From positions 1-34,872 of the forward strand of contig JAGCYX010000046.1 in assembly GCA_017960585.1 (NCBI GenBank): a stretch of DNA of 34,872 nt. The letters run 5' to 3'. The DNA comes from Bacteroidales bacterium. GTDB lineage: Bacteria > Bacteroidota > Bacteroidia > Bacteroidales > UBA932. Positions within the stretch are counted from its first letter, which is position 1. Each line of letters begins with the position of its first letter. Under the pieces are notes generated by a model. That model saw only the letters and a program-made list of their open reading frames with translations. It was not told the origin of the DNA and did not search any database. The position numbers and the translations under genes are program-made. Of this stretch, positions 253-26,167 are shown piece after piece.

Positions 253-359
253 GTGAGCAGCAATTAATTGATTCTCTGATACTTACTGTTTTGTACTATC
301 CCTGTTTTCGGGGGAGCACAAAACAGTATTTCATTAATAGACAAATATTTACAGCTCAC
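253..359 (-). repeat. 107-bp symmetric palindromic element, copy 1
   Basis: The ends are GTGAGC (253-258) and GCTCAC (354-359). A 13-nt central stem pairs 285-297 with 315-327 around a 17-nt loop, and 32 nt lie on each side between stem and end. The layout 32-13-17-13-32 is identical in copy 2. The flanks also pair imperfectly, so the whole element can fold as one long hairpin. The strand given is the orientation in which the three copies align best; in that orientation the single A-C mismatch of the central stem becomes a G-U pair in RNA. It starts 5 bp after the transpeptidase stop codon. It may be a mobile palindrome or an RNA processing signal; I do not recognise the family. Confidence 0.8.
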
Positions 360-384
360 AGGAAAAAACGGCTGTTTTCTTATT

Positions 385-409
385 AACAATTTCTGCGCGT
401 GTTCGTCTA
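385..409 (+). promoter_or_regulatory. Candidate ECF-sigma-type promoter
   Basis: AAC at 385-387 is followed after 16 nt by CGTCTA at 404-409. This matches the general ECF pattern of an AAC-containing -35 and a CGTC-type -10. No good TAnnTTTG housekeeping -7 box was found in this interval. Transcription would begin near 415, about 22 nt before the start codon at 437. Because the operon encodes an ECF sigma factor, autoregulation is a reasonable inference. Confidence 0.5.
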
Positions 410-436
410 TTCATCGGAACATTGAACAAAACCGAC

Positions 437-943
437 ATGAACCTGAAACAGTTATTTTTGATTTTCGCCTTGCTGCTGCCCCTGACGGCCGTCGCGGCCG
501 GTCCAGACCGCAAGGTTTCCCGCTCGGAGGTTTCCTCCATCATTTCTGAGTACCGCCACTACGACGGTGTCGAGGTGGTCAAGGTCGGCTGGCTGGCGAC
601 GGCGGCGCTCAAGGGCGTCATCCGCCATGCGGGCAACGATGAGGACACCCGCCAGATCCGGGAAGCCCTGCGCGGCATCAAGAGCGTGACCGTGCTCGAG
701 TACGAGGAGGCGGCGCCCGACGTCCGCCACCGGCTCAACAGCCGCATCGCCCGCGCCCTGGACGGCCGGGAGCTGCTGATGGAGGCCAAGGACAGCGACG
801 CTTCCCTGCAGATCTTCGGCGTCGTGGACGAGAGCACGGGCACGATCCGCGACTTCATCCTCAGCACCCCCGGCAACTGCGCGCTCATCTGCCTCTTCGG
901 CTCCATTCCGATGGAGGCTGCCAGCCAGATGATGTCCCGATGA
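437..943 (+). CDS. DUF4252 family exported protein
   Basis: A 168-residue protein with an N-terminal signal peptide (residues 1 to about 22, hydrophobic core then AVAAG). The rest resembles DUF4252, a Bacteroidota family of unknown function often found beside ECF sigma genes. The segment ELLMEAKDS recurs in the other DUF4252 gene of this operon (1799-2284), marking them as paralogues. I chose the ATG at 437 over a TTG at 422 because the signal peptide begins there. The stop overlaps the next start as ATGA, implying translational coupling. Family assignment is moderately sure; the biochemical role is unknown. Confidence 0.75.
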   Translation: MNLKQLFLIFALLLPLTAVAAGPDRKVSRSEVSSIISEYRHYDGVEVVKVGWLATAALKGVIRHAGNDEDTRQIREALRGIKSVTVLEYEEAAPDVRHRLNSRIARALDGRELLMEAKDSDASLQIFGVVDESTGTIRDFILSTPGNCALICLFGSIPMEAASQMMSR

Positions 944-1419
944 CGAACGCGCGCTTCCAGAACGAGTGGCTGTCCCTGTCCGGCGACTTCTACCGCGTGG
1001 CCTACTACATCCTCGAGGATGAGGCCGAGGCGGAAGACGCCGTCCAGGAACTCTTCCTCAAGCTCTGGAGCGGCCGGGACGCCCTGGACGGCATCCGCAA
1101 CCCCAAGGGCTACGGGCTCCGCGTCCTGCGCAACCTCTGCCTGGACCGCATCCGGCGCAGCCGGAAAATGGAGACGCCCGAGGCCCTGCCCGAGCCGGAA
1201 TGGCCCGGCCGGCAGGACGAGGCCGTGGACCAGAAAGAGCGCCTCGCCAAGGTCCTGGCCGCCGTCAAGTCCCTGCCTGACAGGCAGCGCGAAGTGCTCA
1301 CGCTCCGGACCCTGGACGGGCTCTCCTACGAGGAGATCGCGGAGCGAACCAGAATGAACCAGCTTACCCTGCGCGTGCTGCTCTCGCAGGCACGCCGAAA
1401 ACTGAAGAATGTGATATGA
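940..1419 (+). CDS. ECF RNA polymerase sigma factor
   Basis: A 159-residue cytoplasmic sigma-70 family protein of ECF size. Region 2 is visible near residues 10-75, with EDAVQELFLKLW and NPKGYGLRVLRNLCLDRIRR. Region 4 lies near residues 105-155, with SLPDRQREVLTLRTLDGLSYEEIAERT and the DNA-reading helix. It would direct polymerase to a small regulon, probably including the promoter at 385-409. It is flanked by overlapping ATGA junctions with the DUF4252 gene before it and a membrane protein after it, the classic place for a partner that controls the sigma factor. Confidence 0.93.
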   Translation: MTNARFQNEWLSLSGDFYRVAYYILEDEAEAEDAVQELFLKLWSGRDALDGIRNPKGYGLRVLRNLCLDRIRRSRKMETPEALPEPEWPGRQDEAVDQKERLAKVLAAVKSLPDRQREVLTLRTLDGLSYEEIAERTRMNQLTLRVLLSQARRKLKNVI

Positions 1420-1802
1420 AGACCCTGGAAGAAATAGAGAACCTCAGCCTCGAAGAACTCGAGCAGAAAGCGACGGAATGCGCCGCCCCCGTCCCCGACG
1501 GGCTGGAGCGCCGCCTGCGCGAGACCCTGGCCGCCCGCGAACTCGCGGACGCCGCCCGGCCCCGCCCCGCCCGCTGGATCCCCTACGCGTCGCTGGCCGT
1601 GGCGGCTGCTGCGGCAGCCCTGGTCGTGCTGCCGCAGCGTGGCCCGAAAGACACCTTCGACGATCCGCTCCTGGCCTACGCCGAAGTGGAGAAGACCTTC
1701 CAGACCATCTCCAGCAAGATGTCCGTCGGCATGGACATCGTCCGCGACGCGGAAGAAACCGCCACCCTCCCCTACAACAACCTTAACAAGATCCAACAAT
1801 GA
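1416..1802 (+). CDS. Single-pass membrane protein, possible anti-sigma factor
   Basis: A 128-residue protein with an acidic and charged N-terminal half (about 1-55, probably cytoplasmic), one membrane segment near residues 57-73 (ASLAVAAAAAALVVLP), and a short C-terminal tail. No zinc-binding HxxxCxxC anti-sigma motif is present and the family is not recognised. Its size, topology and position directly behind the ECF sigma gene, with ATGA overlaps on both sides, suggest it may hold or tune the sigma factor at the membrane. That role is inferred from context only. Confidence 0.6.
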   Translation: MKTLEEIENLSLEELEQKATECAAPVPDGLERRLRETLAARELADAARPRPARWIPYASLAVAAAAAALVVLPQRGPKDTFDDPLLAYAEVEKTFQTISSKMSVGMDIVRDAEETATLPYNNLNKIQQ

Positions 1803-2284
1803 AACGCATAATCATCCTTTTCGCAGCCCTGCTGCTCACCGTTTCCGCCTTTGCCCAGAACGGCAAGTCCATCTACCAGAAATACTCCGACGCGGAGAAC
1901 GTCTCCGCCGTCTACATCTCTCCGGCCATGTTCCGTCTGATGGGCCGCATCCCCGACATGGAAGTCGGCGAGGACAAGGTCAACCTCTCCCCCATCATCC
2001 GTTCGCTCACGGGCCTGTACGTCATCAACAGCGAGAACGCCTCCATCAACGGTTCCCTGCGCGCGGACGCCGAACGCTACATCAAGTCCGGCCACTACGA
2101 ACTGCTCATGGAGGCCAAGGACTCCGGCCAGGCCGTCCGCGTCTACACGGTCGGCAGCGACAAGGTCATCGAGGGCTTCGTGATGCTCGCCGCCGAGTCC
2201 GACGAGGTCACTTTCATCTGCCTGGACGGCCAGATGCCGCGCAATGAGTTCGAAGACCTGATGGCCAGGGAGTTGGCAAAATAA
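1799..2284 (+). CDS. DUF4252 family exported protein, second copy
   Basis: A 161-residue protein with a clear signal peptide (about residues 1-20, ending FAQ). The mature part resembles DUF4252 and shares ELLMEAKDS and the overall spacing with the product of 437-943. It is the last gene of the operon and overlaps the preceding gene by ATGA. Two exported DUF4252 proteins bracketing an ECF sigma factor and a membrane protein suggest a periplasmic or surface sensing module, but no ligand or enzymatic residues can be identified. Confidence 0.75.
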   Translation: MKRIIILFAALLLTVSAFAQNGKSIYQKYSDAENVSAVYISPAMFRLMGRIPDMEVGEDKVNLSPIIRSLTGLYVINSENASINGSLRADAERYIKSGHYELLMEAKDSGQAVRVYTVGSDKVIEGFVMLAAESDEVTFICLDGQMPRNEFEDLMARELAK

Positions 2285-2401
2285 GTTCAAGTCCGAATGA
2301 ATGAATTTTAAAAGTTTTCAAAAAGTTTAGTTAAGTTTTTCAGCCTTTTTATTACATCTGACCGAAAAACGAAAAATTTCTCTGACTATCTATTTTGAAT
2401 C

Positions 2402-2431
2402 AACCCGGGACCAAAGTTATGGTTCCGGGTT
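2402..2431 (+). terminator. Hairpin terminator after the sigma operon
   Basis: An 11-bp stem (2402-2412 with 2421-2431, one G-T wobble) and an 8-nt loop, followed by a T-rich stretch. It lies 118 bp after the operon stop codon and just before the susC-type promoter, so it would separate the two units. The T tract is broken by CGCG, so termination may be imperfect. Confidence 0.6.
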
Positions 2432-2440
2432 TCGCGTTTA

Positions 2441-2471
2441 TTTTAAGGAATGAAACGATTTTTTACCTTTG
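2441..2471 (+). promoter_or_regulatory. Bacteroides-type promoter for the SusC/SusD pair
   Basis: TACCTTTG at 2464-2471 fits the Bacteroidota -7 box TAnnTTTG. The -33 position 19 nt upstream reads TTTT rather than TTTG. Transcription would begin near 2478, leaving about 55 nt of leader before 2534. A weak -33 box is what one would expect if an activator is needed, but no binding site was identified. Confidence 0.6.
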
Positions 2472-2533
2472 GTTCGCTGGCCCCAACGAGCAATTAATCA
2501 TTATTATACTATCATATCTAACCAACTTCACAC

Positions 2534-5500
2534 ATGCTAAAAAAACTGATGAAAGTGACAGGTATCCTGGCGATACTTCTCACCGTTTGGGGAGGTTTCA
2601 GCGCCTCCGCCCAGAACCGTACCATCAGCGGCAAGATCGTGGATACCGGCGGCGAGCCGGTCATCGGCGCAGCCGTGACGGTGGTCGGGAATTCCCGCAT
2701 CGGTGCCGCTTCCGACCTGGACGGCAATTTCACCCTCAGCGTTCCCGCCGGATCTTCCATCTCCGTCGAGAGCATCGGCTACAAGCCCCAGACCATCGCG
2801 GTCGGCGACCGCACCACCTTCAACATCGTCCTCGAGGAGGACAACGAGATGCTTGAAGAGACCGTGGTGATCGGTTACGGCGTCCAGCGCAAGAGCGACC
2901 TGACCGGCTCCGTGGCCTCCGTCCGCGAGACCGAGCTCCAGAACCGCTCCACCTCCGACGCTGCCGCCGCCCTCCAGGGCAAGGCCGCCGGCGTGCAGAT
3001 CTTCAACGACTCCGGCGCCCCGGGTGAAGGAGCTTCCATCCGCGTCCGCGGTATCTCCTCCAACAGCGGCTCCGGCCTCGGCCCGCTCCTCATCGTGGAC
3101 GGTCTGAAGGTCGACAAGATCGACTACCTCGATCCTTCCATGATCGAATCCATGGAGGTCCTGAAGGATGCCGCCTCCGCCGCCATCTACGGTGCGCAGG
3201 CCGGTAACGGTGTCGTGCTCATCACCACGAAGAACGGCGCCAAGAACAAGGACAAGGACGGCAACATCTTCTACAACTATAAACTTTCCCTCAGCAGCCT
3301 CGGCCACCACGCCCAGGTCATGAACGCCGCCCAGTACATCGACTGGCAGCAGCAGGCCGGCCAGCTTCCCGACACCCAGACGATCATCCAGACCGGTGTG
3401 TGGGACGGCGTGACCGACACCAACTGGGCTGACGTCCTGTACGGGACGGGCGTGACCCACAGCCACACCCTCGGCGCCCAGGGCGGCAACGACCGCGGCT
3501 CCTACTTCCTGTCCCTCAACTACGTGGACGAGGACGGTATGGCGCGTGGCAACAGCGATACCTTCAAGCGCTTCACCGCGCAGATCAACGCCGACTACAA
3601 GATCAAGAAGTGGTTCACCGTCGGCACCAACACCTCCGTCGAGTTCCGCCAGCAGCAGAAGATCGGCGAGCACTCCGAGTACGCCGGCAGCAGCGCCGGT
3701 CTGCTGGGTACCCTCATCATCGACCCGCTCACCCCGGTCTACTTTACGTCCTACGACGAGCTGCCCCTCGGCATGAAGGACGCCATCGCCAAGGGTGTCA
3801 AGGTCTACGGACCGGAAGATCACCCGGGCTGGTACTACGCCGTTTCCAAGATCCTGGAAGGCGACGGTGTGAACCCGCTCATCTACCGTGACCGCAACCA
3901 GAAGAAGGAAGAAGGCTGGCAGATCCGCGGTACCGTGTTCGCCAACCTCACCCCGGTCAAGGGTCTGGTGATCACTTCCCGCCTGGGCTACCGCATCAAG
4001 CAGAGCTACAACAGCGACTTCACGGAGCCGTACCACGCCAATGCGAAGAACTATGCGACGACCTACAGCATCAGCGCCACCTCCTCGCAGAGCTACTACT
4101 ATCAGTGGGAAAACTTCGCCAACTACAACGTGACCCTCGGCGGCAAGCACGCCATCGGTGCGATGGCCGGTATGTCCTACACCTACAACGACAGCCGCAG
4201 CGTCGGCGCCAGCCTGACCGGTGAAGATCCCCTCAAGGGCTACGCCGAGAACTTCCGCTACCTCACCCAGGACAACGGTTCCGGTACCAAGGGCATCAGC
4301 GGCGGTTCCCCGAGCCAGAGCAGCCAGATTTCCTACTTCGGCCGTCTGACCTACTCCTACGACAACCGCTACAGCATCCAGACGAACTTCCGTGCCGATG
4401 CTTTCGACTCCTCCAAGCTCTCCCCGAAGAACCGCTGGGGCTACTTCCCCTCCGTCTCCGCCGGCTGGACCGTCAGCAACGAAAGCTTCATCAAGGACAA
4501 CATCAGCCGCGACATCCTCAGCTTCCTGAAGTTCCGCGGTTCCTGGGGTATCAACGGTAACATCGCCGTTCTTTCCGGTTATCCTTACTCCACTGCCATC
4601 TCCTACAACAGCCAGACCTATCAGTTCGGCACCGACGAGACCCTCACCCTGGGTTCCCAGCCGGACGGCCTGTCCAACCCTGACCTGACCTGGGAGACCT
4701 CCGTGCAGACCGACTTCGGTATGGACCTGCGTCTCTTCAACAACCGCCTCACCCTCGGTGTGGACTGGTACAACAAGAACACCGAAGGCCTGCTCGTGAA
4801 CATCAGCCCGGTGGCTGAGGTGGGTATCAGCAGCACGACCGTCAACGCCGGTTCCGTGAACAACACCGGTTGGGAATTCGAACTCGGCTGGCAGGACAAC
4901 ATCGGCGACTTCCACTACAGCATCAACGGCAACCTCTCCACTCTAAAGAACCGCGTGACCTACCTGGATCCTTCCGTGGGACACCAGAAGGGTTCCAGCT
5001 TCGGTAACATGAAGTTCTCCACCTGGTTCGAGGAAGGCTACCCGGTGTGGTATTTCCGCGGCTACCAGTACGCCGGCATCGGCGAGGACGGCAAGGCCCA
5101 GTACTACGCCGCCGACGGCAGCCTCACCCAGTCCCCTGTGGACGCCGACATGGGCTACATGGGCTCCGCCCTCCCGCCCGTCACCTTCGGTCTCACCCTG
5201 CATGCGGATTGGAAGGGGCTTGACTTCACCCTGTTCGGCACCGGCGCCGCCGGGCATCAGCTGATGCCTTGCGTCTACCGCGTGGACCACATGAACATCA
5301 ACGCCCTGACCTACTTCTACGAAGAGTCCGGCAAGTCCATCCCGAAGATCGAGAACATGTGGGCCAGCAAGGAGTTCTGGAGCTCCTCCGCCGTCGTGTT
5401 CAACGGCGACTTCTTCAAGATCAAGCAGATCCAGCTCGGTTACTCCCTGCCGAAGAAGTGGCTCAACAAGGTCTTCATCGACAGCCTCCGCGTCTATGCC

Positions 5501-5647: not shown

Positions 5648-5659
5648 TCTGACAGCATT

Positions 5660-7477: not shown

Positions 7478-7529
7478 TAGTTAGTAGAATTCCTTCCTTT
7501 TAGTTATTTTAGTTAAAATGTTGGAAGTG

Positions 7530-7557
7530 AAGGGCCGGCCCGAGAGGACCGGCCCTT
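7530..7557. terminator. Bidirectional terminator between convergent operons
   Basis: AAGGGCCGG (7530-7538) pairs with CCGGCCCTT (7549-7557) around a 10-nt loop. T and A runs on both sides allow it to end both the SusCD transcript and the minus-strand kinase operon that converges on it. Confidence 0.8.
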
Positions 7558-7586
7558 CTTAATTTCCGGGCGGACAGGAAACGGCG

Positions 7587-8432
7587 TCAGCGCGGCATGG
7601 CTCCCTTGCAGGAGCAGACGTACGCGGCCGTGTCGCTGGCGAGCCGCTGGGCGTCCGCGAGCGAATCACCCCGAAGGTAAGCGACCACGAAAGCGGCGGT
7701 GAAAGAATCGCCGGCGCCGACCGTGTCCACGACGACGGCCTCGCCCGCCGGCTGCGGAAGGACCTCGTCCAGCGTGATCACGCAGCTTCCCTCGGGCCCC
7801 TTGGTCAGGATGACGAAGCGGAGGCCGAAGCGGGCGATCAGGGTGCGGCAGGCGGCGACGTCGTCGTCGCCGAGGGCGAAGAGCCCGGCCACGGTACGGA
7901 TTTCCTCGTCGTTGATCTTCAGGATGTCCGCGAACTGGAGGGAAGTCTCGAGCACTTCCCGGGAGTAGTAATGCTGGCGGAGGTTGATGTCGAAGACCTT
8001 GAGCGCCTCGGGCCGCAGGGCCCGGAGGAAGCGGAGCACGGTATCCCGGGAGGCCATGCGCTGCACCAGCGAGCCGAAGCAGACGGCGTCGGCGCGACGC
8101 GCCAGGGCTTCCATATCCGGGGTGAAGGGAATGTTGTCCCACGCCACATCCTCCTTGATGTTGTAGCTCGGCACCCCCCGGGCGTCGAGTTCCACCTCAA
8201 CGGTGCCCGTGGGTTTGTCCGTGACGACGATCAGGTTCTTCAGGCCCTTCTCCGCGACGATGTCCAGGATCTCCCGGCCGAGGGCGTCGCCGCCGACGGC
8301 GCTGACCGCCCAGCCTTCTTCGCCCAGCCGGCCGGCGTGATACGCGAAATTGGCGGGCGCCCCGCCGAGGGCCTTGCCGGAGGGCAGCAGGTCCCAGAGG
8401 ATCTCTCCGATGCCGACGATCACCTTTTTCAT
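7587..8432 (-). CDS. PfkB family sugar kinase, fructokinase-like
   Basis: A 281-residue cytoplasmic kinase with both PfkB signatures: the N-terminal substrate-binding GGAPANFAYHAGRLG (about residues 23-37) and the C-terminal DTVGAGDSFTAAF with the catalytic Asp of GAGD. The overall pattern (GEILWDLLPSGKALGGAPANFA) is that of fructokinases, which make fructose 6-phosphate from fructose and ATP. Another hexose or a pentose cannot be excluded. The start overlaps the stop of the transporter gene by 4 bp, so uptake and phosphorylation are coupled. It is the last gene of the six-gene operon. Confidence 0.88.
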   Translation of the reverse strand: MKKVIVGIGEILWDLLPSGKALGGAPANFAYHAGRLGEEGWAVSAVGGDALGREILDIVAEKGLKNLIVVTDKPTGTVEVELDARGVPSYNIKEDVAWDNIPFTPDMEALARRADAVCFGSLVQRMASRDTVLRFLRALRPEALKVFDINLRQHYYSREVLETSLQFADILKINDEEIRTVAGLFALGDDDVAACRTLIARFGLRFVILTKGPEGSCVITLDEVLPQPAGEAVVVDTVGAGDSFTAAFVVAYLRGDSLADAQRLASDTAAYVCSCKGAMPR

Positions 8433-9595
8433 ACGCGCTCGGTTTTAAGTAATTTCACGGCAAAGAACACCAGATACGCCACGCCGAGGCTGATCACGAT
8501 GACCGAGCCGGCCTGGGAGTTCAGGGCGTCGGACAGGATGCCCATCAGCAACGGGAAGATGGTGCCGCCGATCAGGCCCATGATCATCAGGCCCGACATC
8601 TCGTTGTTCTTCTCCGGCAGGTAGAGCAGCGCCCGCGAGAAGATCATCGAGAAGATGTTGGAGTTGCCGAAGCCCACCAGGGCGATGGCGACGTACAGGC
8701 CGACCTTACTCTGGCAGACGAACAGGCCGATCATGGCCAGCACCATGCAGACGGCGCTGACGGCGAAGAACTTCCGGAGCGGGAACCTGGACAGGATGAA
8801 CGAGCCGGACAGGCAGCCGAGCGTGCGGAACAGGAAATAGATGCTCGTCGCGATGCCCGCTTGCTCCAGCGGCAGGGAGAGGCGTTCCATGATGATCTTC
8901 GGGGCGCAGGTGTTCACGCCCACGTCGATGCCCACGTGGGAAATGATGCCGAGGAAGAACAGCAGCACGGTGCCGTCGCCCAGGAGCTTGAGGCAGTCGG
9001 CGAAGCTCGAGGACTTGTCCTTCGGCAGCTCCTCCGGAATCCTGGTCGCGCCCAGATAAATGGCGGCGACGACCACGAAGGCAAGGAACACCGGGTAGAG
9101 CAGCAGCCAGTTGTTGAAACGGACCGACGCCCAGCTGGCGATGAGCGGCGCAATGAAGGAGGCGATGGCCTTGATGAACTGCCCGAAGGTCAGCGTGCTG
9201 GCCAGCTTCTCTCCGCTCACGACGCAGGTGATGAGCGGGTTCAGCGACACCTGCATCAGGGTGTTCCCGATGCCCAGCAGGCAGAAGGACGCCAGCATGA
9301 CGGGATAGTTGTAGGCGCACAGGGGCAGCGCCAGCGCGAGGGCCGTGACCACCAGGCTGAGCACCACGGTCTTCCGCTTGCCGACGCGGTTCATCATCAG
9401 GCCGATGGGGACCGATAGGAAGAAGAACCACAGGAAGACCATCGACGGCAGGAAGTTGGCCATCGTGTCGGACAGCGCGAAGTCCGCCTTTACGTAATTC
9501 GTCGCCGTGCCCACCATGTCCACGAAGCCCATGGTGAAGAAGGCGAACATCACCGGCACCAGCCGGGACAGGTTGGATTGTTTCGACGCCGTCAT
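8429..9595 (-). CDS. MFS sugar permease, FHS (FucP-like) family
   Basis: A 388-residue inner-membrane protein with about 12 hydrophobic segments. The N-terminal FAFFTMGFVDMVGTATNYVK and the loop NRVGKRKT between helices 2 and 3 are typical of the fucose-glucose/galactose-hexose proton symporter branch. The 4-bp overlap with the PfkB kinase gene matches the transporter plus fructokinase pairs known from Bacteroides fructan loci, so fructose is the best guess for the substrate. The gene also overlaps the esterase gene upstream by 4 bp. Confidence 0.85.
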   Translation of the reverse strand: MTASKQSNLSRLVPVMFAFFTMGFVDMVGTATNYVKADFALSDTMANFLPSMVFLWFFFLSVPIGLMMNRVGKRKTVVLSLVVTALALALPLCAYNYPVMLASFCLLGIGNTLMQVSLNPLITCVVSGEKLASTLTFGQFIKAIASFIAPLIASWASVRFNNWLLLYPVFLAFVVVAAIYLGATRIPEELPKDKSSSFADCLKLLGDGTVLLFFLGIISHVGIDVGVNTCAPKIIMERLSLPLEQAGIATSIYFLFRTLGCLSGSFILSRFPLRKFFAVSAVCMVLAMIGLFVCQSKVGLYVAIALVGFGNSNIFSMIFSRALLYLPEKNNEMSGLMIMGLIGGTIFPLLMGILSDALNSQAGSVIVISLGVAYLVFFAVKLLKTERV

Positions 9596-10530
9596 TGGTT
9601 CAGCAGTTTGCAGTTGTCCAGGAAATCATAGAACAGCGTCGTCCAGATGTTCACGGACTGGCCGTTCTCGCGGTAGCCGAAGCCGTGGAAGCCGCGCGTG
9701 AAAGAATGGATTTCGAGCGGCTGGCGGGTCTTGTTCCAGGCGTTGTAGAGGGCGGGCGTGTCGCCGAAGCCGTTCGCAGAGGAGGCTTCGGCCGTGCTCG
9801 CCGCAATGAAGAGCGGCATCGGGTCATCGGGGACCTTGTCCTCGAACCAGGCGGGATAAATCATCCCGAGGAAGTCCGGACGGCTCATCTCGTCGTGGTC
9901 GAGGGCCACGTGATAGACGATGTTGCCGCCCGCCGAGAATCCGATGATGCCGATGGCCCTGGGGTTGACGCCGTATTTCTCCGCGTTCTTGCGGACGTAG
10001 GTGATGGCGGCGCGGCCGTCGTCCCAGGCCATCTTCCGGTCGTAGCCCTGTTCCTCGGCGATCTTCGCGTGCTTCGCAGTGAGTTCCTGCATCCGTGCAT
10101 CCCGTCCCTGCATGCCGTAGGAATGGTCGGCCACGTATCTGGCCTCCTCGTAATCGGCGCCGGAATAGGCGATGCGGTACTTCAGGACGAAGGCGGCGAT
10201 ACCGTGCGCGGCGAACCACCGGGCCACGTTGGGCCCTTCCTGGTGCCAGGACAGCGCGGTGAAGCCGCCGCCGGGGCAGACCACGATGGCAGCCCCCGTC
10301 TCGGTGCCCTTGGCCGGAAGATATGCCCACAGTTCGGGATCCGTGACGTTCAGGATGCACTGCCCGACCTCGCCGGGATTCATGGGGGTCGTGTATTCGA
10401 AGAGGAACTCCTGCTGGGTCCAGTTCTCGCAGCCGGGCGCCCGTCCTTCATACAAGCGGATGACTTCCGCCTGCCCGAAGGCGCTGACGGCGCTCAGGAC
10501 AAAGAGTAATAGGGAAACTATTCTTTTCAT
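9592..10530 (-). CDS. Exported alpha/beta-hydrolase esterase
   Basis: A 312-residue secreted esterase of the BD-FAE/acetyl esterase type. It has a signal peptide (about 1-20, ending FGQ), an oxyanion-hole loop VVCPGGGF, the nucleophile elbow GFSAGG with Ser199, and a late His in RGFHGFGY. Such enzymes remove acetyl or feruloyl groups from plant polysaccharides. I chose the Met at 10530 because the signal peptide starts there; an in-frame ATG at 10542 overlaps the previous stop as ATGA and is a real alternative. The stop overlaps the transporter start. Confidence 0.85.
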   Translation of the reverse strand: MKRIVSLLLFVLSAVSAFGQAEVIRLYEGRAPGCENWTQQEFLFEYTTPMNPGEVGQCILNVTDPELWAYLPAKGTETGAAIVVCPGGGFTALSWHQEGPNVARWFAAHGIAAFVLKYRIAYSGADYEEARYVADHSYGMQGRDARMQELTAKHAKIAEEQGYDRKMAWDDGRAAITYVRKNAEKYGVNPRAIGIIGFSAGGNIVYHVALDHDEMSRPDFLGMIYPAWFEDKVPDDPMPLFIAASTAEASSANGFGDTPALYNAWNKTRQPLEIHSFTRGFHGFGYRENGQSVNIWTTLFYDFLDNCKLLNQ

Positions 10531-10946: not shown

Positions 10947-13586
10947 TTAGTTTCCGAGGAGGAAAAGAACGGGGACATCCAGGCGGGAAGCCCAGGAGCC
11001 CTCCACGTGGGAGAGGCCCGGGAACACCCTGCTAACATAATGGGCGTTGTCCCAGCCGGCTTCGCGGAACATCTTGTCCAGCCGGTCCTGATATTTGGGA
11101 TACTGGGCGTCGAGGGTCTGGTCGCCGCGGTCCATATACAGCTTGCAGCTGTTGGGCTTGAGGTTCTCCCGAAGGTAGTCCACGTAGCACTGGTTCGCCG
11201 GGTCGATGAATTCCTGCTCCGCATCGTAGTTGGTGATGTAGAGGACGGAATGGGTCGAGAGGCAGCCCGCGCCGCCGAATACCTCGGGACATTTGGTCAC
11301 GGCATAGGAGGAGATCAGGCCGCCCATGCTGGAGCCCATGTGGAAGGTGTGTTCCCGATCCTTGCGGGTGGAATAGGTCCGGTCGATGAAGGGCTTCAGC
11401 TCCTCCACCAGGAACTTCAGGTAGTCGTTGCCCAGGAGTTCGCCCTCGCCCATCCGCTTGCTCTTCGCGTAGTCCTTCAACGCCGGGGAATAGCGGTCGA
11501 ACACGTCCTGGGGGAAGTATTCCTGGCTCCGGGTGTGGAAGGCGTTGGCCACGCCCACGACGATGCAGTCCTGGATCTTCTCCTCCTCGAGGAGCTGGCC
11601 GAACACCTCGTCCACGCACCATTCCTGGTGGTTGAACATCTTCTCGGCGTCGAACAGGTTCTGCCCGTCGCTCATATACACGACGGCGTACTGCTTGTTC
11701 TTCGTGTAGTCGTCCGGGACCCAGACGTACACGTTTCTCGGGGAGACGAATTCCGACTTGAATGCCGGATAGAAGTCCAGCTTGCCCGTCGAGACCGCGG
11801 GCTTGTCCGGATGGCCCGCCCCCACGGTGCCGGCCGTCCGGTCCACGTCGTTGAACCGGAAGATGGCGGCGGAGACGCCGGAGAGCTGGATGACGTCGCC
11901 CTTCTTCGTCTGTTTGTAGCTGCATTTCTTGTAGTTGCCGCCGATGAGCTCGGGCTTGGAGAGCTGCGTCGGGAGCGTCACGCTGACCGGCTTGCCGGAC
12001 GGGTTCAGCACCACCCAGCAGCGCTCGCCGCGCCACTTGCGCTCATACACCATCGGATACGGCTGGTCCAGGCTGCTGACCAGGCGCCAGGACGCGTCGG
12101 CGCCCAGCGCGGGCACCTGCTTGCGGAGCTGCAGCAGGCCGCGGACGTAGTGGAGCAGGGAGTTCGGGTCGGCTTCCGCCTTCTCGACGGTCATCCGGTT
12201 CGGGTCCGGATCCTGCGGGATGTAGATCTGGTCGATGGGAGCGGTGGAGAATCCGCCGTTGGCCGTGCCGTCCCAGAGCATCGGGATGCGGCAGCCGGCC
12301 CGGAAGCCGGAACCGTCCGTGGACGGGGCGGCGGGGTTCTGCTTGAGGCCGATCTCGTCGCCGTAGTAGATGAACGGCACGCCCGGCATCGTCAGGAAGA
12401 AGGTCATCGCGACCTTGAGTTCTTCGGGATCGGTGCGGCCTTCCGTGCACACGCGGTTGAAGTCGTGGTTGCCGGAAGGCGTGCAGACGTAGCCCTTGCC
12501 CCGGACGGCCTGGTACTGATAGTCATACAGGTCGAACCAGGTCTTCAGCTCGCCGTTCCCGGCCGCGGAGAAGTAGGGCTTCGCGCTGCCGGCAGGGCCG
12601 AAGCCCCGGTTGAAGAAGAACAGCGTGGAGTAGTTGTACTGCCCGTCGTGGCAGAAGAAATCCAGGTCGAACCCGGCCTGCGTGACCGACTGCGCGGGGT
12701 TGAACCACTCGGCAATCAGCACGCCCTCGGGGTAGGTCGCGTCGAACCACGGCACGAAGTCCTCGTTCCACAGCCGGATGGTCGCCGCCTTGTCGGGGTC
12801 GTTCTTCACGAGGCTGGCCGCCATATCCACGCGGAAGCCGTCCACACCCTTGTCCATCCAGAACATCATGATGTTCTTGAGCTCGCGGCGCATCGCCTGC
12901 GGCCCCGGGGCGTCCACCGCCTGCTCCCACGGGTGCGCGGGGTCGGGATCGGCGAAGCCGAAATTGAGCGCAGGCTGGGTGTCGTAGAAATTCTTGATGT
13001 AGTAGGGGCCGCGCGGGGCGTCCGTCGACACGAACTTGCGGGTCAGCGACAGATGGGCGCTCATCAGCGCGGCATAGTCCGGATCATCGGAGGCCGCGGG
13101 GCCGGCCGCCGGATCCTCGGGCTTGAAGGTGGGCCAGATGTAGTAGTCGGAATAGCGGAAGTTGGCGCCCTCCCTGGACTGGAGGAACCATTCGCACTGG
13201 TCGGAGGAATGGCCGGCCACCAGGTCCATGACGACCTTGATGCCGCGCGCGTGCGCCTCTTGGATCAGCTCGATGAGGTCGTCGTTGTCGCCGAAGCGCT
13301 TGTCCACGCGGTAGTAGTCGATGATGTCGTAGCCGCCGTCCGTCCAGCCGGACACGTACACCGGGTTCAGCCAGATGGCCGTGACGCCGAGGGAGCGGAT
13401 GTAGTCCAGGCGGGAGATGATGCCCTGCAGGTCGCCGATGCCGTTGTCGTCGCTGTCCTGGAAGGACGAGGGATAGATCTGGTAGAAGACCGCGTCGCTC
13501 AGCCAGCTCGGCTGGGCGGGGTTTTTGGCCGCCAGGCCGGGCGCCGCAAGCAGGCACGCAAATGCGAAAGCGAGTAATTTCTTCAT
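10947..13586 (-). CDS. GH13 alpha-glucosidase/amylase family fused to a CE1-like esterase
   Basis: An 879-residue exported protein. After a signal peptide (about 1-20) comes a GH13 barrel (about 30-590). The three acidic residues sit in FRVD (Asp254, nucleophile), LIAEW (Glu293, acid/base) and SGNHD (Asp375). From about residue 610 follows an esterase-D/CE1-like hydrolase (NVYVWVPDDY, DGQNLFD, GSSMGG with Ser753). The first part would cleave alpha-glucosidic links and the second an ester. GH13 region I reads DLVAGHS where DxxxNH is usual. The Met at 13586 was chosen for its signal peptide; it lies 4 bp after the upstream stop. The enzyme's substrate within GH13 is not clear. Confidence 0.88.
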   Translation of the reverse strand: MKKLLAFAFACLLAAPGLAAKNPAQPSWLSDAVFYQIYPSSFQDSDDNGIGDLQGIISRLDYIRSLGVTAIWLNPVYVSGWTDGGYDIIDYYRVDKRFGDNDDLIELIQEAHARGIKVVMDLVAGHSSDQCEWFLQSREGANFRYSDYYIWPTFKPEDPAAGPAASDDPDYAALMSAHLSLTRKFVSTDAPRGPYYIKNFYDTQPALNFGFADPDPAHPWEQAVDAPGPQAMRRELKNIMMFWMDKGVDGFRVDMAASLVKNDPDKAATIRLWNEDFVPWFDATYPEGVLIAEWFNPAQSVTQAGFDLDFFCHDGQYNYSTLFFFNRGFGPAGSAKPYFSAAGNGELKTWFDLYDYQYQAVRGKGYVCTPSGNHDFNRVCTEGRTDPEELKVAMTFFLTMPGVPFIYYGDEIGLKQNPAAPSTDGSGFRAGCRIPMLWDGTANGGFSTAPIDQIYIPQDPDPNRMTVEKAEADPNSLLHYVRGLLQLRKQVPALGADASWRLVSSLDQPYPMVYERKWRGERCWVVLNPSGKPVSVTLPTQLSKPELIGGNYKKCSYKQTKKGDVIQLSGVSAAIFRFNDVDRTAGTVGAGHPDKPAVSTGKLDFYPAFKSEFVSPRNVYVWVPDDYTKNKQYAVVYMSDGQNLFDAEKMFNHQEWCVDEVFGQLLEEEKIQDCIVVGVANAFHTRSQEYFPQDVFDRYSPALKDYAKSKRMGEGELLGNDYLKFLVEELKPFIDRTYSTRKDREHTFHMGSSMGGLISSYAVTKCPEVFGGAGCLSTHSVLYITNYDAEQEFIDPANQCYVDYLRENLKPNSCKLYMDRGDQTLDAQYPKYQDRLDKMFREAGWDNAHYVSRVFPGLSHVEGSWASRLDVPVLFLLGN

Positions 13587-13590
13587 ATCG

Positions 13591-18296: not shown

Positions 18297-18314
18297 ACTG
18301 GATTTCCTTTTCTA

Positions 18315-18322: not shown

Positions 18323-18419
18323 AAAAACATTTCTCGGTTATCGCTTCAGAAGACGTCACAATTATTATCAAATACTGCACATTATTATCCGTCCCTGCGA
18401 AAAGAGGACGTTTTTTTCG

Positions 18420-18427
18420 TATTTTTG
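18420..18427 (+). promoter_or_regulatory. Possible -7 box for the GH51-GH54-VKOR operon
   Basis: TATTTTTG fits TAnnTTTG and lies 29 nt before the start at 18457. The -33 position is poor (TGCG). The 160-bp divergent region 18297-18456 would hold promoters for both strands and any shared operator. Confidence 0.45.
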
Positions 18428-18456
18428 TTGAGTAAAGAACGAACACCGATTATCTT

Positions 18457-21513: not shown

Positions 21514-21518
21514 ATAAG

Positions 21519-24500
21519 ATGAAGAAGATTCTATTCGGAGCAATCGTCGGCCTGGTGCTCGTCGGGGCGGTGATTGCATGCAACCAGCTCGCGGGAGGCC
21601 CGGCGCTGCAGCGCCCGGAGGGCCCGTGCGACGTGTACGAGCGCGGCGGCGCCCCCTGCGTGGCCGCCCACAGCACCACGCGTGCACTTTATGCCGCCTA
21701 CGACGGCCCGCTCTATCAGGTGATGCGCGCCTCGGACGGCAAGACCCTGGACATCGGCGTGGTCAAGGCCACGGCCGGCGACGCGGGCGGCTATGCCGAC
21801 GCGGCGGCCCAGGACGCCTTCTGCAAGGACACCTACTGCTGGATCACCGTCCTCTATGACCAGTCCGGCAAGGGCAACCACCTCTACCAGGCCCCGCGCG
21901 GCGGCTTCAGCGGCCCGGCGATGGGCGGCTACAACAACGTCCCCGTGGCCGACTGGGCCCCGGTGAACGTGATGGGCCACAAGGTGTACGGCATCTTCAT
22001 CGCCCCGGGTATGGGCCTGCGCCTCAACGACCCGACCGGCACGGCCGTGGACGACCAGGCCGAGGGCCAGTACTGGGTGATCAGCGGCCACCACTACAAC
22101 TCCGGCTGCTGCTTCGACTACGGCAACGCCGAGACCGACAGCCGCGACGACGGCGACGGCACCATGGAGACCACCTATTTCGGCAACCAGCCGGCGTGGT
22201 ACCACGGCGAGGCCCCGGGTCCCTGGATCATGACCGACCAGGAGAACAACCTCGTGGGCTGCGTCAACGACGACCCGAACGACAAGTTCTGCGAAGGCCT
22301 GGAGACCATCACCTGGCGCTTCGTCACCGCGACCGCCGACGGCGAGCCGCACCACTGGCGCTCCATGGGCGGCAACGCCCAGGAGGGCGCGCTCAAGGTC
22401 TATTATGACGGCGGCCGCATCCGCAACGAGCGCAACAGCTACGACCCGATGCGCAAGCAGGGCGCCATCCTGCTGGGCAACGGCGGCGACAACTCCAACG
22501 GCTCCTCCGGTACCTTCTACGAGGCGGCGATGACCGCCCCCGGCACCTTCCCGACCGAGGCCCTGAACCAGGAGGTCCAGGCCAACGTCGTGGCCGCCCG
22601 CTACCGCGTGGCCACCGTGGAAGTGTTCCCGTCGCTGAACGACGGCCGCCCCTCCAACGTGCAGACCTTCACCCCGGGCGGCACCGCCAGGACCGTGGTG
22701 CGCTTCGTGAACACGACGGACGAGCCCATCGAGGGCCTGACCCTCGCGCTCAAGGTCCCCAAGGGCTGGAAAGCGACTGCGAACGGCGCCAAGGCCATGC
22801 AGGTGGACTACGCTGTGGCGCCCGGCCAGACGGTCGTCGCGGAGTTTGACGTGACCTCCGGCAAGGCCTCCTTCAACGGCGACGTCGAGGCCGTGGCCAG
22901 CTGGGCCGGCCGGCAGGAGACGGGCCGCCTCAAGGTGCGCAACACCGAGGCCGTCAAGATCAACGAGTTCAGCATCAGCGACGGCTTCATCGAGCTCTAC
23001 AACGCCTCCGACAAGGCCGTCGACCTGTCCGGCTGGACCGTGCGCCAGCACGCGGCCAACATCCCCTACTTCTCCGACATCAAGATCCCGTCCGGCACCC
23101 AGCTCGCCCCGAAGGCGTACTACCTGCTCGGCATGGCCGGTTCCGGCCTCGCCGTGGATGCCGCCAAGGGCGATAACGTCATCTATGTCCGCAGCGTCGA
23201 GGGCGTCAAGCCGGGCGACGAGATCTTCGTCGGCGGCGAGAAGCGCACGGTCAAGGCCGTGAACGCCCCCGCGCCCGCTCCGGCTGCGCCGATGGCGATG
23301 CCGTTCGGCCGCGGCATGCAGCCCGCCGGCAGCCCGACCACCGTCTGGCAGCCCCTCCCGGGCGGCCACGGCATCGAGATTCCGGTCGGCTCGACCAACA
23401 TCCCCGTCACTTCCGCCGCCCATTTCGCCGTCGGCCAGAAGATGGCCATCGGCTACGGCACCACCCGTCCCGCCGTCTCCAATTCGCTGGAGAAGTATGA
23501 GGTCGTGACCGTCACGGCCGTGGGCAAGGCCGGCACGCAGGGCTACCTGTCGATGGACGCCAAGCCGGGCGACACCAACATCAAGGTCTCCTCGGTGGAG
23601 AACATCTCCGTGGGCGACCAGATCCGCCTGGACATCGCCAGCGAGGGCCACGGCATCGAGACCGTGACCGTGACGAAGGTCGGCACCGCCTCCGCGCGCA
23701 ACACCCTCAACGGTCCGCTCGGGCCCAACGAGGATGCGGGCACGGGCCTGGACATCGCCGAGCCGCTGAAGTACGCGCACGCCTCCAACATGCCGTACAG
23801 CGTGAACGGCACGGGCATCAGCTTCGAGCCCGCCACCAAGGTCCCGCACTACAGCAACGAGCCGGTGCTCGCGCTCTGCTTCTCCATCGAGCTGGACAGC
23901 CCGCTCGCGGCCGCCCATCCGATTGACGAGGCCGTCATCGCAGGCACGGGCGGCTACCGCGGCACCACGCCCGCCGACCTGACCTTCGGCGGTCCGGCCC
24001 TGAGCGACGGCGGCGGCAACATCACGCTGCGCGACGCGCGCGGCAACGTGGCCGACGCCATCAACTACGGTCTCGTGACCGATCCCTGGCTGGGCGAAGG
24101 CTATCAGGCCGACTCCGGCCTTGACGAGCCGGGCAACTTCGCCCCGACTCCGGCGGCAGCGCGCCGCTTCGGCTTCGGCAACGGCCCGCAGCCGCAGCCC
24201 GCAGCGCTGAGCGCCGGCCGCTTCCCGGACGGTGCCGACGCCGATGACAACAAGACCGATTTCCGCGTCCAGCAGGGCCTCAACCTCGCCCTGGCCGCCG
24301 CTGCCGGACAGACCAACATCAAGGTCTCTTCCGTGCAGGGGCTCCGCGAAGGTGCGCCGATCGTGGTCGGCCGCGGTGCCGAGGCTGAGGTGCTGAGCGT
24401 CGCGAAGCTCGGCACCGCCGGCGCCACGACCCTCCAGGGTGCGGCCGGTGCGGGTGCCAAGTCGCTGCTCGTCGCCTCCGCCCAGGGCTTCACGCCCGGC

Positions 24501-24746
24501 CAGGAGATCCTCGTGGGTGAGGAAAGCGCCACCGTCGCCGAAGTCATCATGCCGCGCGGCTGGTGGATGCGCGGTCCGCAGGAGCAGAAGCTCGTGCTCA
24601 CCGCTCCGCTCCGCAAGGCCCACAAGGCCGCCGAGACCGTCGCGGGCACGGGCGTGACCCTGTCCGCCCCGCTCCAGACCGCCCATGCGGCCGGTGCCGC
24701 CGTGGCCACGGGCCAGCCGACGCCGGGCGCTGCCAACCAATACTAG
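21519..24746 (+). CDS. GH54-like alpha-L-arabinofuranosidase lipoprotein with nested repeat modules
   Basis: A 1075-residue lipoprotein (VIAC, Cys21). Residues about 34-375 are GH54-like with all three disulfides of the family: Cys37-Cys47, Cys102-Cys107 and the vicinal Cys197-Cys198 in GCCFDYGN. The catalytic candidates are Glu242 (TDQENN) and Asp324 (GNGGDNSNG). A NEW3-like domain (about 380-475) and a lamin-tail-like domain (from VKINEF) follow. The lamin-tail domain is broken by several copies of a beta module of the pattern TNIKVSSV-GDxI-VTVxxVG-APLxxAHA, both in its middle and before its final QPTPGAAN. It is a paralogue of 15840-18296 and about 257 residues longer, mainly through these modules. 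The VKOR-DsbA gene starts 4 bp after it. Confidence 0.88.
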   Translation: MKKILFGAIVGLVLVGAVIACNQLAGGPALQRPEGPCDVYERGGAPCVAAHSTTRALYAAYDGPLYQVMRASDGKTLDIGVVKATAGDAGGYADAAAQDAFCKDTYCWITVLYDQSGKGNHLYQAPRGGFSGPAMGGYNNVPVADWAPVNVMGHKVYGIFIAPGMGLRLNDPTGTAVDDQAEGQYWVISGHHYNSGCCFDYGNAETDSRDDGDGTMETTYFGNQPAWYHGEAPGPWIMTDQENNLVGCVNDDPNDKFCEGLETITWRFVTATADGEPHHWRSMGGNAQEGALKVYYDGGRIRNERNSYDPMRKQGAILLGNGGDNSNGSSGTFYEAAMTAPGTFPTEALNQEVQANVVAARYRVATVEVFPSLNDGRPSNVQTFTPGGTARTVVRFVNTTDEPIEGLTLALKVPKGWKATANGAKAMQVDYAVAPGQTVVAEFDVTSGKASFNGDVEAVASWAGRQETGRLKVRNTEAVKINEFSISDGFIELYNASDKAVDLSGWTVRQHAANIPYFSDIKIPSGTQLAPKAYYLLGMAGSGLAVDAAKGDNVIYVRSVEGVKPGDEIFVGGEKRTVKAVNAPAPAPAAPMAMPFGRGMQPAGSPTTVWQPLPGGHGIEIPVGSTNIPVTSAAHFAVGQKMAIGYGTTRPAVSNSLEKYEVVTVTAVGKAGTQGYLSMDAKPGDTNIKVSSVENISVGDQIRLDIASEGHGIETVTVTKVGTASARNTLNGPLGPNEDAGTGLDIAEPLKYAHASNMPYSVNGTGISFEPATKVPHYSNEPVLALCFSIELDSPLAAAHPIDEAVIAGTGGYRGTTPADLTFGGPALSDGGGNITLRDARGNVADAINYGLVTDPWLGEGYQADSGLDEPGNFAPTPAAARRFGFGNGPQPQPAALSAGRFPDGADADDNKTDFRVQQGLNLALAAAAGQTNIKVSSVQGLREGAPIVVGRGAEAEVLSVAKLGTAGATTLQGAAGAGAKSLLVASAQGFTPGQEILVGEESATVAEVIMPRGWWMRGPQEQKLVLTAPLRKAHKAAETVAGTGVTLSAPLQTAHAAGAAVATGQPTPGAANQY

Positions 24747-24750
24747 CAGG

Positions 24751-26064
24751 ATGACCCTGCGCAGGTTCAAGACCCTGCTGCTGCCGCTGTGCGCAGCCTG
24801 TCTGCTGCTCGCCGGATGGATGGTGTACCACGCCATCGCCGGCGGGCAGCTGGCGGGTTGCGGTGCGGGCAGCGGCTGCGACGCCGTGATGGGCAGCCGC
24901 TGGGCCTGGGTGCTCCGCGGCGTTCCCGTCGCGCTCCCCGCCGCCGTGGTCTACGCCCTGCTGATCATCTGCCTGCTGTTTCTGGAAGATTGCCGGTCGC
25001 AGCCGGCAATGACGACCACGGGACCGGCAATGACGACCACGGGACCGGCAATGACGACCACGGGACCGGCAATGACGACCACGGGACCGGCAATGACGGA
25101 CGACCGTCATGCCCGACCGGATCGGGCATCTCAAAGCCTGAACCGAATCATCTGGCCCCTGATGCTCTTCCTCGCCGGAAGCATCATCGGCGCCGCCCTA
25201 TGGTTCGCCTGGCTGCAGATCGGCGTCCTTCACGCCTTCTGCCCTTATTGTACGGTGCTGCACATCCTCGGATGTATTGCGGCGGGGATTATCCTATTGG
25301 CAGGAGATTGCCGGTCGAAGCCGGCAATGACGATGTTTGCGGCGGGCCTGGTGGCGGCGGCGGTATTCGCCGTCGTCCAGACGAAAACCCTGCCGGACGC
25401 CATCTACGACAGCGGCCGCACGGAAGCGGCCCTCCCGACCTTCGACGACGGCGAGGTCCCGGTGCTGGGAGATTCGCCGGTCGTCCTTCGACAAGCTCAG
25501 GAACCGCCGGCAATGACGGATGAACGTCATGCCCGACCTGATCGGGCATCTATTACCCTGCTGTTCGACTTCCAGTGCATCCACTGCCGGCGCCTGCACC
25601 GCATCCTGCCGGAGCTGCTGGAGCGCGCCGGCGGGCAGTTCGCCATCCAGCTCTGCCCCGTGCCGCTCAGCAGCGCCTGCAACCCCTACATCCCCGCCTC
25701 GGGCATCGACCGCTTCGCGGGCTCCTGCCCGCTCACCCGCCTCGCCCTGGCGGTGTGGTACGCCCGCCCGGACGCGTATGCCGATTATTGGGATTATCTG
25801 CTCGGAAGCGGTGACGAACACGCCGCCGTCAGCCCCGCCGAGGCGGAAGACCGTGCCCGGGAGCTGCTCGGCGACGGCCTGGAGGCCGCCCTGCAGGATC
25901 CGCGCATCGACAGCTATCTGCGCAAGGCCGAAGAACTGTTCGGCCGCACCTCCTCTTCAGAAAAGAGCGGCGTCCCCCGCTTCATCCACGGCCAGCAATG
26001 GCTCGTCCCCGAAACGGACGACCCCGACGCCCTCCTCACGCTCCTTCGCCAGCTTCCCCTGTGA
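24751..26064 (+). CDS. VKOR-DsbA fusion, disulfide-bond-forming membrane protein
   Basis: A 437-residue inner-membrane protein. The VKOR part has TM1 (about 8-28), the loop cysteines Cys37 and Cys43 (GCGAGSGCDAVMGS), TM2 (58-79), TM3 (133-157), the active site Cys164-Pro-Tyr-Cys167 at the start of TM4, and TM5 (about 195-210). A DsbA/thioredoxin-like domain follows in the periplasm with Cys276-Ile-His-Cys279. It should pass electrons from secreted cysteines to quinone. Three loops (about 80-127, 186-194 and 241-267) are encoded by palindromic repeats. I chose the ATG at 24751, four bases after the GH54-like stop, over 24685, which would overlap that gene by 62 bp. The TGA stop lies inside the end of repeat copy 2. 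Confidence 0.88.
   Translation: MTLRRFKTLLLPLCAACLLLAGWMVYHAIAGGQLAGCGAGSGCDAVMGSRWAWVLRGVPVALPAAVVYALLIICLLFLEDCRSQPAMTTTGPAMTTTGPAMTTTGPAMTTTGPAMTDDRHARPDRASQSLNRIIWPLMLFLAGSIIGAALWFAWLQIGVLHAFCPYCTVLHILGCIAAGIILLAGDCRSKPAMTMFAAGLVAAAVFAVVQTKTLPDAIYDSGRTEAALPTFDDGEVPVLGDSPVVLRQAQEPPAMTDERHARPDRASITLLFDFQCIHCRRLHRILPELLERAGGQFAIQLCPVPLSSACNPYIPASGIDRFAGSCPLTRLALAVWYARPDAYADYWDYLLGSGDEHAAVSPAEAEDRARELLGDGLEAALQDPRIDSYLRKAEELFGRTSSSEKSGVPRFIHGQQWLVPETDDPDALLTLLRQLPL
24989..25130 (+). repeat. In-frame REP-like palindrome, 21-bp tandem repeat and second palindrome
   Basis: ATTGCCGG/CCGGCAAT (24989-24996 with 25003-25010) is followed by four exact 21-bp units (25011-25094, each ending CCGGCAAT) and then the palindrome ATGCCCGA/TCGGGCAT (25109-25116 with 25122-25129). 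The frame stays open: the tandem units encode AMTTTGP four times in the loop between TM2 and TM3 of the VKOR-DsbA protein. Confidence 0.92.
25307..25328 (+). repeat. In-frame REP-like palindrome, second site
   Basis: ATTGCCGG (25307-25314), 6-nt loop, CCGGCAAT (25321-25328). It is nearly identical to the palindrome at 24989 and in the same frame, encoding GDCRSKPAMT after TM4 of the VKOR domain. Confidence 0.88.
25472..25549 (+). repeat. In-frame composite palindrome, third site
   Basis: A variant ATTCGCCGG arm (25472-25480) and GCCGGCAAT (25506-25514) enclose CTTCGACAAGCTCAGG, a palindrome-like motif that recurs in many bacterial genomes. The ATGCCCGA/TCGGGCAT palindrome (25529-25536 with 25542-25549) follows. 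The encoded peptide ends PAMTDERHARPDRAS, nearly the same as at the first site, and lies in the linker between TM5 and the DsbA-like domain. Confidence 0.85.
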
Positions 26065-26167
26065 GCTATAACTGTTTGAAAGTCAGTTTATAAACGTTTT
26101 GTACTCCCCCAAAAATCGAGAGAGCACAAAACGTTAAATTATTAGTAAACAGTTAGTTACTGCTCAC
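26061..26167 (-). repeat. 107-bp symmetric palindromic element, copy 2
   Basis: Same length and geometry as copy 1: ends 26061-26066 and 26162-26167, central stem 26093-26105 with 26123-26135, 17-nt loop, 32-nt flanks. The outer arm extends to CTGTGAGC/GCTCACAG. Copy 1 has ACTG/CAGT at the stem base, while this copy has AACG/CGTT, a compensatory change. In minus-strand RNA the stem and its loop form about 20 successive pairs, G-U included. It lies between convergent genes, begins 20 nt after the GH43 stop in its own orientation, and contains the stop codon of the VKOR-DsbA gene. Confidence 0.85.

Follow-up and report, generated by a model that had tools for sequence, protein, structure and literature searches.

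Palindromic elements of about 110 bp in Bacteroidales genomes and their link to a clade of Y1 transposases

Palindromic copies in the window

The window, a 34,872-nt stretch of a Bacteroidales genome (GenBank assembly GCA_017960585.1, contig JAGCYX010000046.1), carries two full copies and one short form of a palindromic element of about 110 bp. In this study we focus on these elements and on a clade of Y1 transposases found with their relatives. We establish by computation the anatomy, copy number and covariation of the elements, their linkage to the clade, the likeness of the two elements of one gene, and their absence at four gene ends of related species. Very probably, the elements spread with the help of a single-stranded DNA (ssDNA) transposase whose gene bears like repeats at its ends. 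The copies in the window, all assigned to what we call family 1, are the following:

251-361, 111 bp, no strand assigned: full element of family 1, recognised by geometry, alignment, covariance model and folding
26059-26169, 111 bp, no strand assigned: full element of family 1, recognised by geometry, alignment, covariance model (which includes it) and folding
30123-30197, 75 bp, no strand assigned: short form with family-1 ends, recognised by end pattern, alignment and model search

A first-pass annotation of the window had described the full copies as perfectly symmetric hairpins with a 32-13-17-13-32 geometry running from GTGAGC to GCTCAC. This geometry holds in both copies and is identical between them; 'perfectly' is slightly too strong, because each 13-nt stem contains one A/C mismatch, at the same place in both copies. 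The ends can be extended 2 bp outward on each side, giving an element of 111 bp bounded by CTGTGAGC...GCTCACAG (CCGTGAGC in the first copy). In the model structure, the ends of the first copy (251-264 and 348-361) pair and its central stem (287-303/309-325) closes a loop at 304-308, while in the second copy the paired ends are 26059-26072 and 26156-26169 and the central stem is 26095-26111/26117-26133. The tip of this second copy, CTGTGA, is the source of the TGA stop (26062-26064) of the frame 24685-26064. The third copy that had been mentioned exists as the 75-bp form, with ends alike, and the flanks read by eye, without a statistic, agree with the statement that there is no target duplication.

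A BLAST search with the first copy found three further sites in its own genome (E 2.4e-6 to 3.5e-4), including the second copy, and the end pattern TGTGAGC(50-110)GCTCACA has 6 sites in that genome versus 0 for the reversed control pattern. Moreover, DNA folding z values for the two full copies on both strands range from -4.1 to -6.8, and none of 200 shuffles folded as well. Taken together, the BLAST search, the pattern control and the folding shuffles exclude chance for the hairpins of the window. A known RNA family was also considered and dropped, because Rfam gave no match at the gathering score over the whole window and ARAGORN found no tRNA.

Families and anatomy of the elements

Two covariance models were used, R1 from six copies (alignment A3) and R2 from 58 elements of many genomes (alignment A5, in which one element is present twice, leaving 57 distinct). 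The first copy of the window scores E 6.6e-20 with R1, which includes that copy. In the window's own genome (G000; 2.06 Mb in 113 contigs, estimated 81% complete), R1 gave 46 strand-wise matches at E <= 1, and R2 gave 108 at E <= 0.1, which correspond to 55 distinct places. For 44 of these the elements were laid out and assigned to families by eye:

Family 1, to which the window's copies belong: two 75-bp forms besides 12 full copies, each of 111 bp
Family 2: 7 copies of 111-112 bp, ending mostly in GTGATG
Family 3: 11 copies of 107-108 bp, for the most part with CGTTTT-type ends, two with a different core
Family 4: 10 copies, of which two are identical, built on the core ATGACTCCGGG and without clear pairing of the ends
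Unassigned: 2 copies

The expectation of a non-coding family of many copies with fixed geometry is thus borne out, with 12 of the 12 full family-1 copies measuring 111 bp; a further copy is cut off at the end of contig C108. The sister families keep a common plan of paired ends, a symmetric TTGAT..ATCAG motif and a central stem-loop, and the elements listed across genomes are 105-113 bp long, short and partial forms aside. Family 4, found on contigs C17, C102, C80, C7, C39, C30, C91, C25, C59 and C101, has the core ATGACTCCGGG..CCCGGAGTCAT with strongly kept arms, TTGATTATCAA. A second 75-bp form lies at C89:6941-7015. Aligned with the family-1 consensus, the form at 30123-30197 misses 36 bp, mostly one arm of the central stem and the loop, and both short forms combine family-1 ends with the loss of most of one central-stem arm and the loop; the 75-bp form may be a deletion derivative that was itself copied.

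Across the 57 distinct elements, pairing amounts to 87.5% in the outer block (columns 1-13 with 101-113), 84.2% in the central stem (columns 34-52 with 62-80) and 57.6% in the middle, counts that are favoured by the derivation of the structure from the very elements counted. The covariation score is 0.539 versus 0.216 in shuffles, with 0 of 500 as high, and it is 0.14-0.17 when the partners are slid. At single positions, column pair 7/107 pairs in 52 of 56 elements, where composition predicts 14, and column pair 46/68 in 54 of 57, where composition predicts 21. The middle region (columns 14-33) keeps TTGAT..ATCAG and its mirror as sequence, and its pairing is close to what is expected; although single elements do fold here, no clear covariation emerges when the elements are compared. 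Column 12 is A, opposite T, in 57/57, and GTG stands at both ends of 37/57 elements. Since covariation is found in the end block and central stem, and sequence conservation in the middle, the element combines two paired blocks that change with a symmetric part that stays constant. The earlier idea that structure rather than sequence has been kept therefore applies to the end block and the central stem, which covary; it fails for the AA/TT pair, most GTG tips and TTGAT..ATCAG, all conserved as sequence, and for the middle region, whose pairs form about as often as composition predicts.

Within the frame 24685-26064, four tandem 21-bp units (CCGGCAATGACGACCACGGGA) were also noted at 25003-25086. 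Another stretch of this frame, 25462-25566, is repeated on further contigs of the genome and is present in relatives too.

Occurrence in relatives and linkage to a Y1 transposase clade

A covariance-model search of the host and related genomes, as suggested in the first-pass annotation, found copies of the same plan. With R1 at E <= 0.01, matches occur in 19 of 36 genomes of the same genus and in 0 of 24 genomes of other genera in the order. With R2 at E <= 1e-4, 294 other genomes across the order, which included one other same-genus genome without a match, gave one match (E 4.4e-5), in a different genus of the same family. This sole match outside the genus overlaps the 3' end of a Y1 transposase gene, whose product of 267 aa has the motifs NHVH and YILNNP. 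At locus L307 (1490-1630), in another genus of the family, the repeat at the Y1 gene end has a terminal inverted repeat (TIR) of about 23 bp (CACTTTGGCGCAGTTTGAGGTAA).

A first set of loci was obtained with the Pfam family Y1_Tnp (PF01797), which has 83 hits in the genus; 80 stretches, mostly with about 4 kb on each side, were fetched and three of genome G036 were left out. R1 elements are concentrated near the transposases, with 35 centred within 300 bp of the transposase frame (47.6 kb) versus 16 in the other 489 kb; the limit was loose (E up to 5, one 39-nt fragment of L085 at E 4.5 being excluded), so the weakest of the 51 counted elements may be chance. In the tree of the 80 Y1 proteins, one clade of 32 (support 100/100) contains 26 proteins with an element in the fetched stretch, while the other 48 proteins contain 1. 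The other Y1 clades of the genus (L085, L086, L088, L126 and relatives) encode proteins of mostly about 285-310 aa.

In the window's own genome, the profile A4 of the linked clade found two members that the Pfam search had not listed, and both are flanked by sister-family elements on each side:

C111:7728-8633: clade transposase; R2 flanks at 8695-8806 (E 4e-12) and 7537-7647 (E 5e-11), family 2
C26:10407-11309: clade transposase; weak R2 flanks at 10295-10402 (E 0.004) and 11319-11426 (E 2e-4), family 3

A second set was collected by scanning GTDB contigs by protein, with 172 relatives reported and 80 loci retained; the titles of the 80 contigs kept read Bacteroidales or Bacteroidia, many naming a ruminant host, a habitat in which the genus Cryptobacteroides is large. 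R2 was built partly from elements at transposases and some second-set loci are first-set places (L220 is L162), so that this set is not wholly independent. Room on both sides is available at 73 loci: 44 of them are flanked on both, 14 only upstream and 14 only downstream, and 1 has no element; thus 72/73 have an element on at least one side. Three of the 7 loci cut by a contig end have both elements and 4 have one. Among the matches listed, and with 31 lower-scoring rows excluded, at least 130 R2 matches lie near the gene and at least 27 elsewhere.

Inverted-repeat scans without a model make no use of R2. The strict scan, whose sole requirement is inverted-repeat pairing over a suitable size, found 50 elements near the gene, 10 elsewhere and 0 in shuffled DNA, and served 39 of the 73 loci (both sides 7, upstream only 15, downstream only 17, none 34). 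A looser scan found 113 near, 79 elsewhere and 23 in shuffles, with at least one element at 66 of the 73 loci (both 36, upstream only 14, downstream only 16, none 7), and the two loosest settings returned mostly chance (693 and 1581 elsewhere versus 518 and 1469 in shuffles). In the strict scan, upstream elements end 54-184 bp before the protein match, and downstream elements start between 22 bp before and 109 bp after the stop. Typically, the transposase gene is accompanied by a cognate element before its start and another at its stop codon.

The two elements of one gene resemble each other. Of the loci with an element on each side, 37 also have a stop-free protein match; in 25 of these the upstream element is closest to its own downstream element, and in 35 it has it among the top three; in 29 of the 37, chosen such that no two proteins are more than 75% identical, the numbers are 25/29 and 29/29. 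Protein identity and element similarity are correlated over the 37 loci (Mantel r 0.658, with 0 of 2000 permutations as high). When all 44 two-element loci are taken, the own partner is closest in 29 and within the top three in 41, with r 0.611, and in the first set the upstream element is closest to its own downstream element in 10 of 13 cases.

As for the proteins themselves, 59 of the 72 stop-free ones of the second set were aligned (A7). DH[x]H is present in 59/59 and the Tyr is invariant at its column, the HUH-to-Tyr spacing is 60 residues in 58 and 59 in one, nearly all have the Tyr motif Y[VIL]xNN[PAG], and the median length is 306 aa. The more diverse first set has a spacing of 60, once 62, wherever the simple motif fell at the expected place; several of its 29 proteins have no simple motif there, and the HUH neighbours vary. 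Y1_Tnp is matched within the first ~120 residues by 53/59 proteins (E <= 0.01) and no other Pfam family is found in more than one of them; no helix-turn-helix (HTH) or DnaA_C match was found in the 59 proteins at this limit.

Two genes of the window, 24685-26064 and 26190-28241, have orthologs in two related species (G008 and G003). The element is absent from 4/4 orthologous gene ends read there, three of which were also searched with R1 and R2. In the window's genome a segment is enclosed by the copies at 26059 and 30123; its second gene (28355-30091) points the other way in G008, relative to gene 24685-26064, and the two enclosing copies may have served as inversion points.

Interpretation and comparison with known systems

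We regard it as highly likely that the hairpins are non-autonomous palindromic mobile elements of about 110 bp, of the repetitive extragenic palindromic (REP) or REPIN type, moved by an HUH/Y1 transposase of the kind called REP-associated tyrosine transposase (RAYT, TnpA-REP). By analogy with TnpA-REP (PMC8266576, PMC3116915), this enzyme would act on the folded single strand, and the elements would be copied or moved as folded ssDNA, for example on the lagging strand at replication, after being bound and cleaved by the transposase. The covarying end block and central stem could then match each family to its enzyme, whereas TTGAT..ATCAG and the remaining fixed positions would form the common recognition or cleavage part. 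As in comparable systems, the elements would presumably spread as a dependent population, each protein and its family diverging together. Family 1 may have been spread by a transposase that has been lost or lies in the unassembled part of the genome.

Several observations weigh against this interpretation. At the level of the elements, pairs changed on both sides number 46 versus 43.9 in shuffles (63/500), which is no excess, and the classical GT[AG]G guide stands at the inner stem foot in 2/57 elements, with 4.8 expected from shuffles. The correlation between protein and element drops to r 0.256 below 75% protein identity (651 of 666 pairs). No transposase flanked by family 1 was found in the own genome, an assembly estimated 81% complete, and family-1 copies were seen only in that genome, both with a strict pattern in loci L085-L299 and with the end pattern in 61 genomes. 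The strict pattern returned nothing beyond the copy already known 1.3 kb from the C26 transposase, which two overlapping loci share. The end pattern matches in 37 genomes and 14 of 25 genera; among the matches listed, those outside the own genome resemble, by eye, chance matches within coding sequence that lack the family-1 core, and some genomes exceed the reversed control (e.g. G019, 7 vs 0). As for the proteins, five distinct clade members score 24-38 bits on NF047646, the NCBIfam model of the REP-associated tyrosine transposase, whose cut-off is 80, and L086, a Y1 protein outside the clade, scores alike (28 bits). Solved transposases are only distantly similar (best E 0.001 with A4 and 0.098 with A7), and with the A4 profile an unrelated glycosylase reaches E 0.0025. 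Finally, the genome comparisons revealed no transposition, excision or insertion. Base-exact empty sites were sought and none obtained among the genomes compared, which are different species; because the nearest species are too distant and gene order is rearranged, the comparison is one of presence or absence at gene ends.

Among the alternatives, a classical miniature inverted-repeat transposable element (MITE), that is, a deletion derivative of a DDE insertion sequence with terminal repeats read as double-stranded DNA and with target duplications, is very unlikely. It would account for the terminal inverted repeats, the length of ~110 bp, the dispersed copies and the lack of visible coding capacity. 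However, no target duplication was seen by eye in the flanks, the end block stays complementary while its sequence differs between families, a long central stem is also kept, and the gene found with the elements belongs to the HUH/Y1 clade, no search aimed at DDE genes having been made.

Nor do we give much weight to an immobile bidirectional transcription terminator, or stabiliser of mRNA ends, at gene ends, which we consider about as improbable. All 15 copies examined have the end of a frame of 450 nt or more within ~200 nt on one or both sides, a count for which the frames were not checked as genes and no chance control was made, and the element tip supplies the TGA ending a long upstream frame in 5 of these 15; the window copies fold strongly as RNA, and REPs have such side roles (PMC6006769). 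Termination would nevertheless need neither fixed length, nor paired ends, nor family-specific covariation. Furthermore, a terminator scan of 25900-26400 did not identify the copy at 26059, the only one scanned, as a terminator, related species have no element at the corresponding gene ends, and the linkage to a single transposase clade would be left unexplained.

That the neighbourhood of the transposase is a mere landing site for elements moved by another enzyme is likewise scarcely probable. One of the 48 Y1 genes of other clades does have an element in its stretch, but a landing site explains neither the placement (54-184 bp before the protein match and -22 to +109 bp around the stop) nor the likeness of one gene's two elements and their correlation with the protein. 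The least credible alternative, an ssDNA-folded recombination site of the integron attC kind for a tyrosine recombinase, fits palindromic sites near gene ends with an outer stem, internal loop and inner stem, but the laid-out copies are spread over many contigs rather than in a cassette array, and the gene found with them is a Y1 transposase, no search aimed at integron integrases having been made. The DDE MITE, the attC site and the plain terminator were all set aside on this evidence.

The first-pass annotation had found no known element that fits. The analysis does not support this: the elements behave like the REP/REPIN or TIR repeats of RAYT and TIRYT transposases, and a dedicated Y1 transposase clade bears such elements at its ends. 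REP and REPIN units, like the elements here, have a size near 100 bp and are not known to leave a target duplication. With these repeats and their RAYTs, described mainly from Proteobacteria, the present system shares palindromic, extragenic, symmetric units that can fold as one long hairpin with compensatory changes, as well as repeat groups beside their own transposase genes and co-evolution of enzyme and repeat (PMC3116915, PMC8266576). It differs in having one nested palindrome of near-fixed length instead of a pair of GTAG-footed REP hairpins separated by a spacer, in lacking a GT[AG]G foot, and in its transposase of ~306 aa with a long C-terminal part. The canonical plan of two inverted REPs, each with its own hairpin, and a spacer is indeed not found: the element consists of a single outer paired block with a single central stem.

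RAYT-flanking palindromes and TIR families are already known (PMC3733652, PMC6006769), and three published groups come close. Subclass 2.6 of TnpAY1 (RAYT group 5), reported from Bacteroidetes with 'atypical secondary structures', shares the phylum and the setting of a Y1 gene between unusual structures that recur at other places in the genome (PMC6006769). Its proteins have 179 aa, a median HuH-Y distance of 82 and the motif YIH[QN]NP (PMC6006769), compared with 306 aa, 60 and Y[VIL]xNN[PAG] here; it is by these listed protein values, and not by its repeats, that we set it apart. TIRYT proteins and TIRtrons, largely subclass 2.1, likewise have a Y1 gene flanked by inverted repeats, some self-complementary, in moderately abundant families, a HuH-Y distance near 60 and a C-terminal extension (PMC3733652, PMC6006769). 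However, subclass 2.1 has 238 aa, Y[IV]HLNP-type motifs and HTH or DnaA_C-like C-termini (PMC6006769), whereas here the motif differs and no such Pfam match occurs, and most TIRYT ends read GGGG[AT][CG]A[CG] (PMC3733652, PMC6006769), unlike the ends found here. The 'double foot' REPs of subclass 2.4, abundant in Bacteroidetes, resemble our elements in their tetranucleotide foot with its complement at the opposite end; the subclass has 194 aa and a median HuH-Y distance of 88 (PMC6006769), and in our elements GT[AG]G stands at both outer ends in only 10/57, GTG in 37/57.

In the published table, as given in PMC6006769, no subclass joins the length, spacing and motif seen here, and among the titles and abstract openings returned by literature searches, most subscription papers lying beyond reach, none describes this repeat family. 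The best reading is thus a RAYT variant without a GTAG foot, whose transposases fit no subclass of that table. More tentatively, and with somewhat less than even confidence, we suggest a separate Bacteroidales lineage of ssDNA transposases: a new Y1 subclass (~306 aa, Tyr 60 residues after HUH, unexplained C-terminal half) with nested palindromes of near-fixed length and no GTAG guide, in which enzyme and repeat family would be matched, like lock and key, by a changing 4-bp end block and central stem around a constant TTGAT..ATCAG, with several enzyme-repeat pairs per genome. Research on RAYT and REPIN pairs treats them as domesticated transposases whose repeat populations are long-lived; the work consulted is mainly on gamma-Proteobacteria. 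The loci described here, 80 in one set with 172 relatives reported, add a dense natural series of enzyme-repeat pairs whose repeats are alignable, gap-poor and strongly covarying, and this series makes the recognition of repeats without a GTAG guide directly testable.

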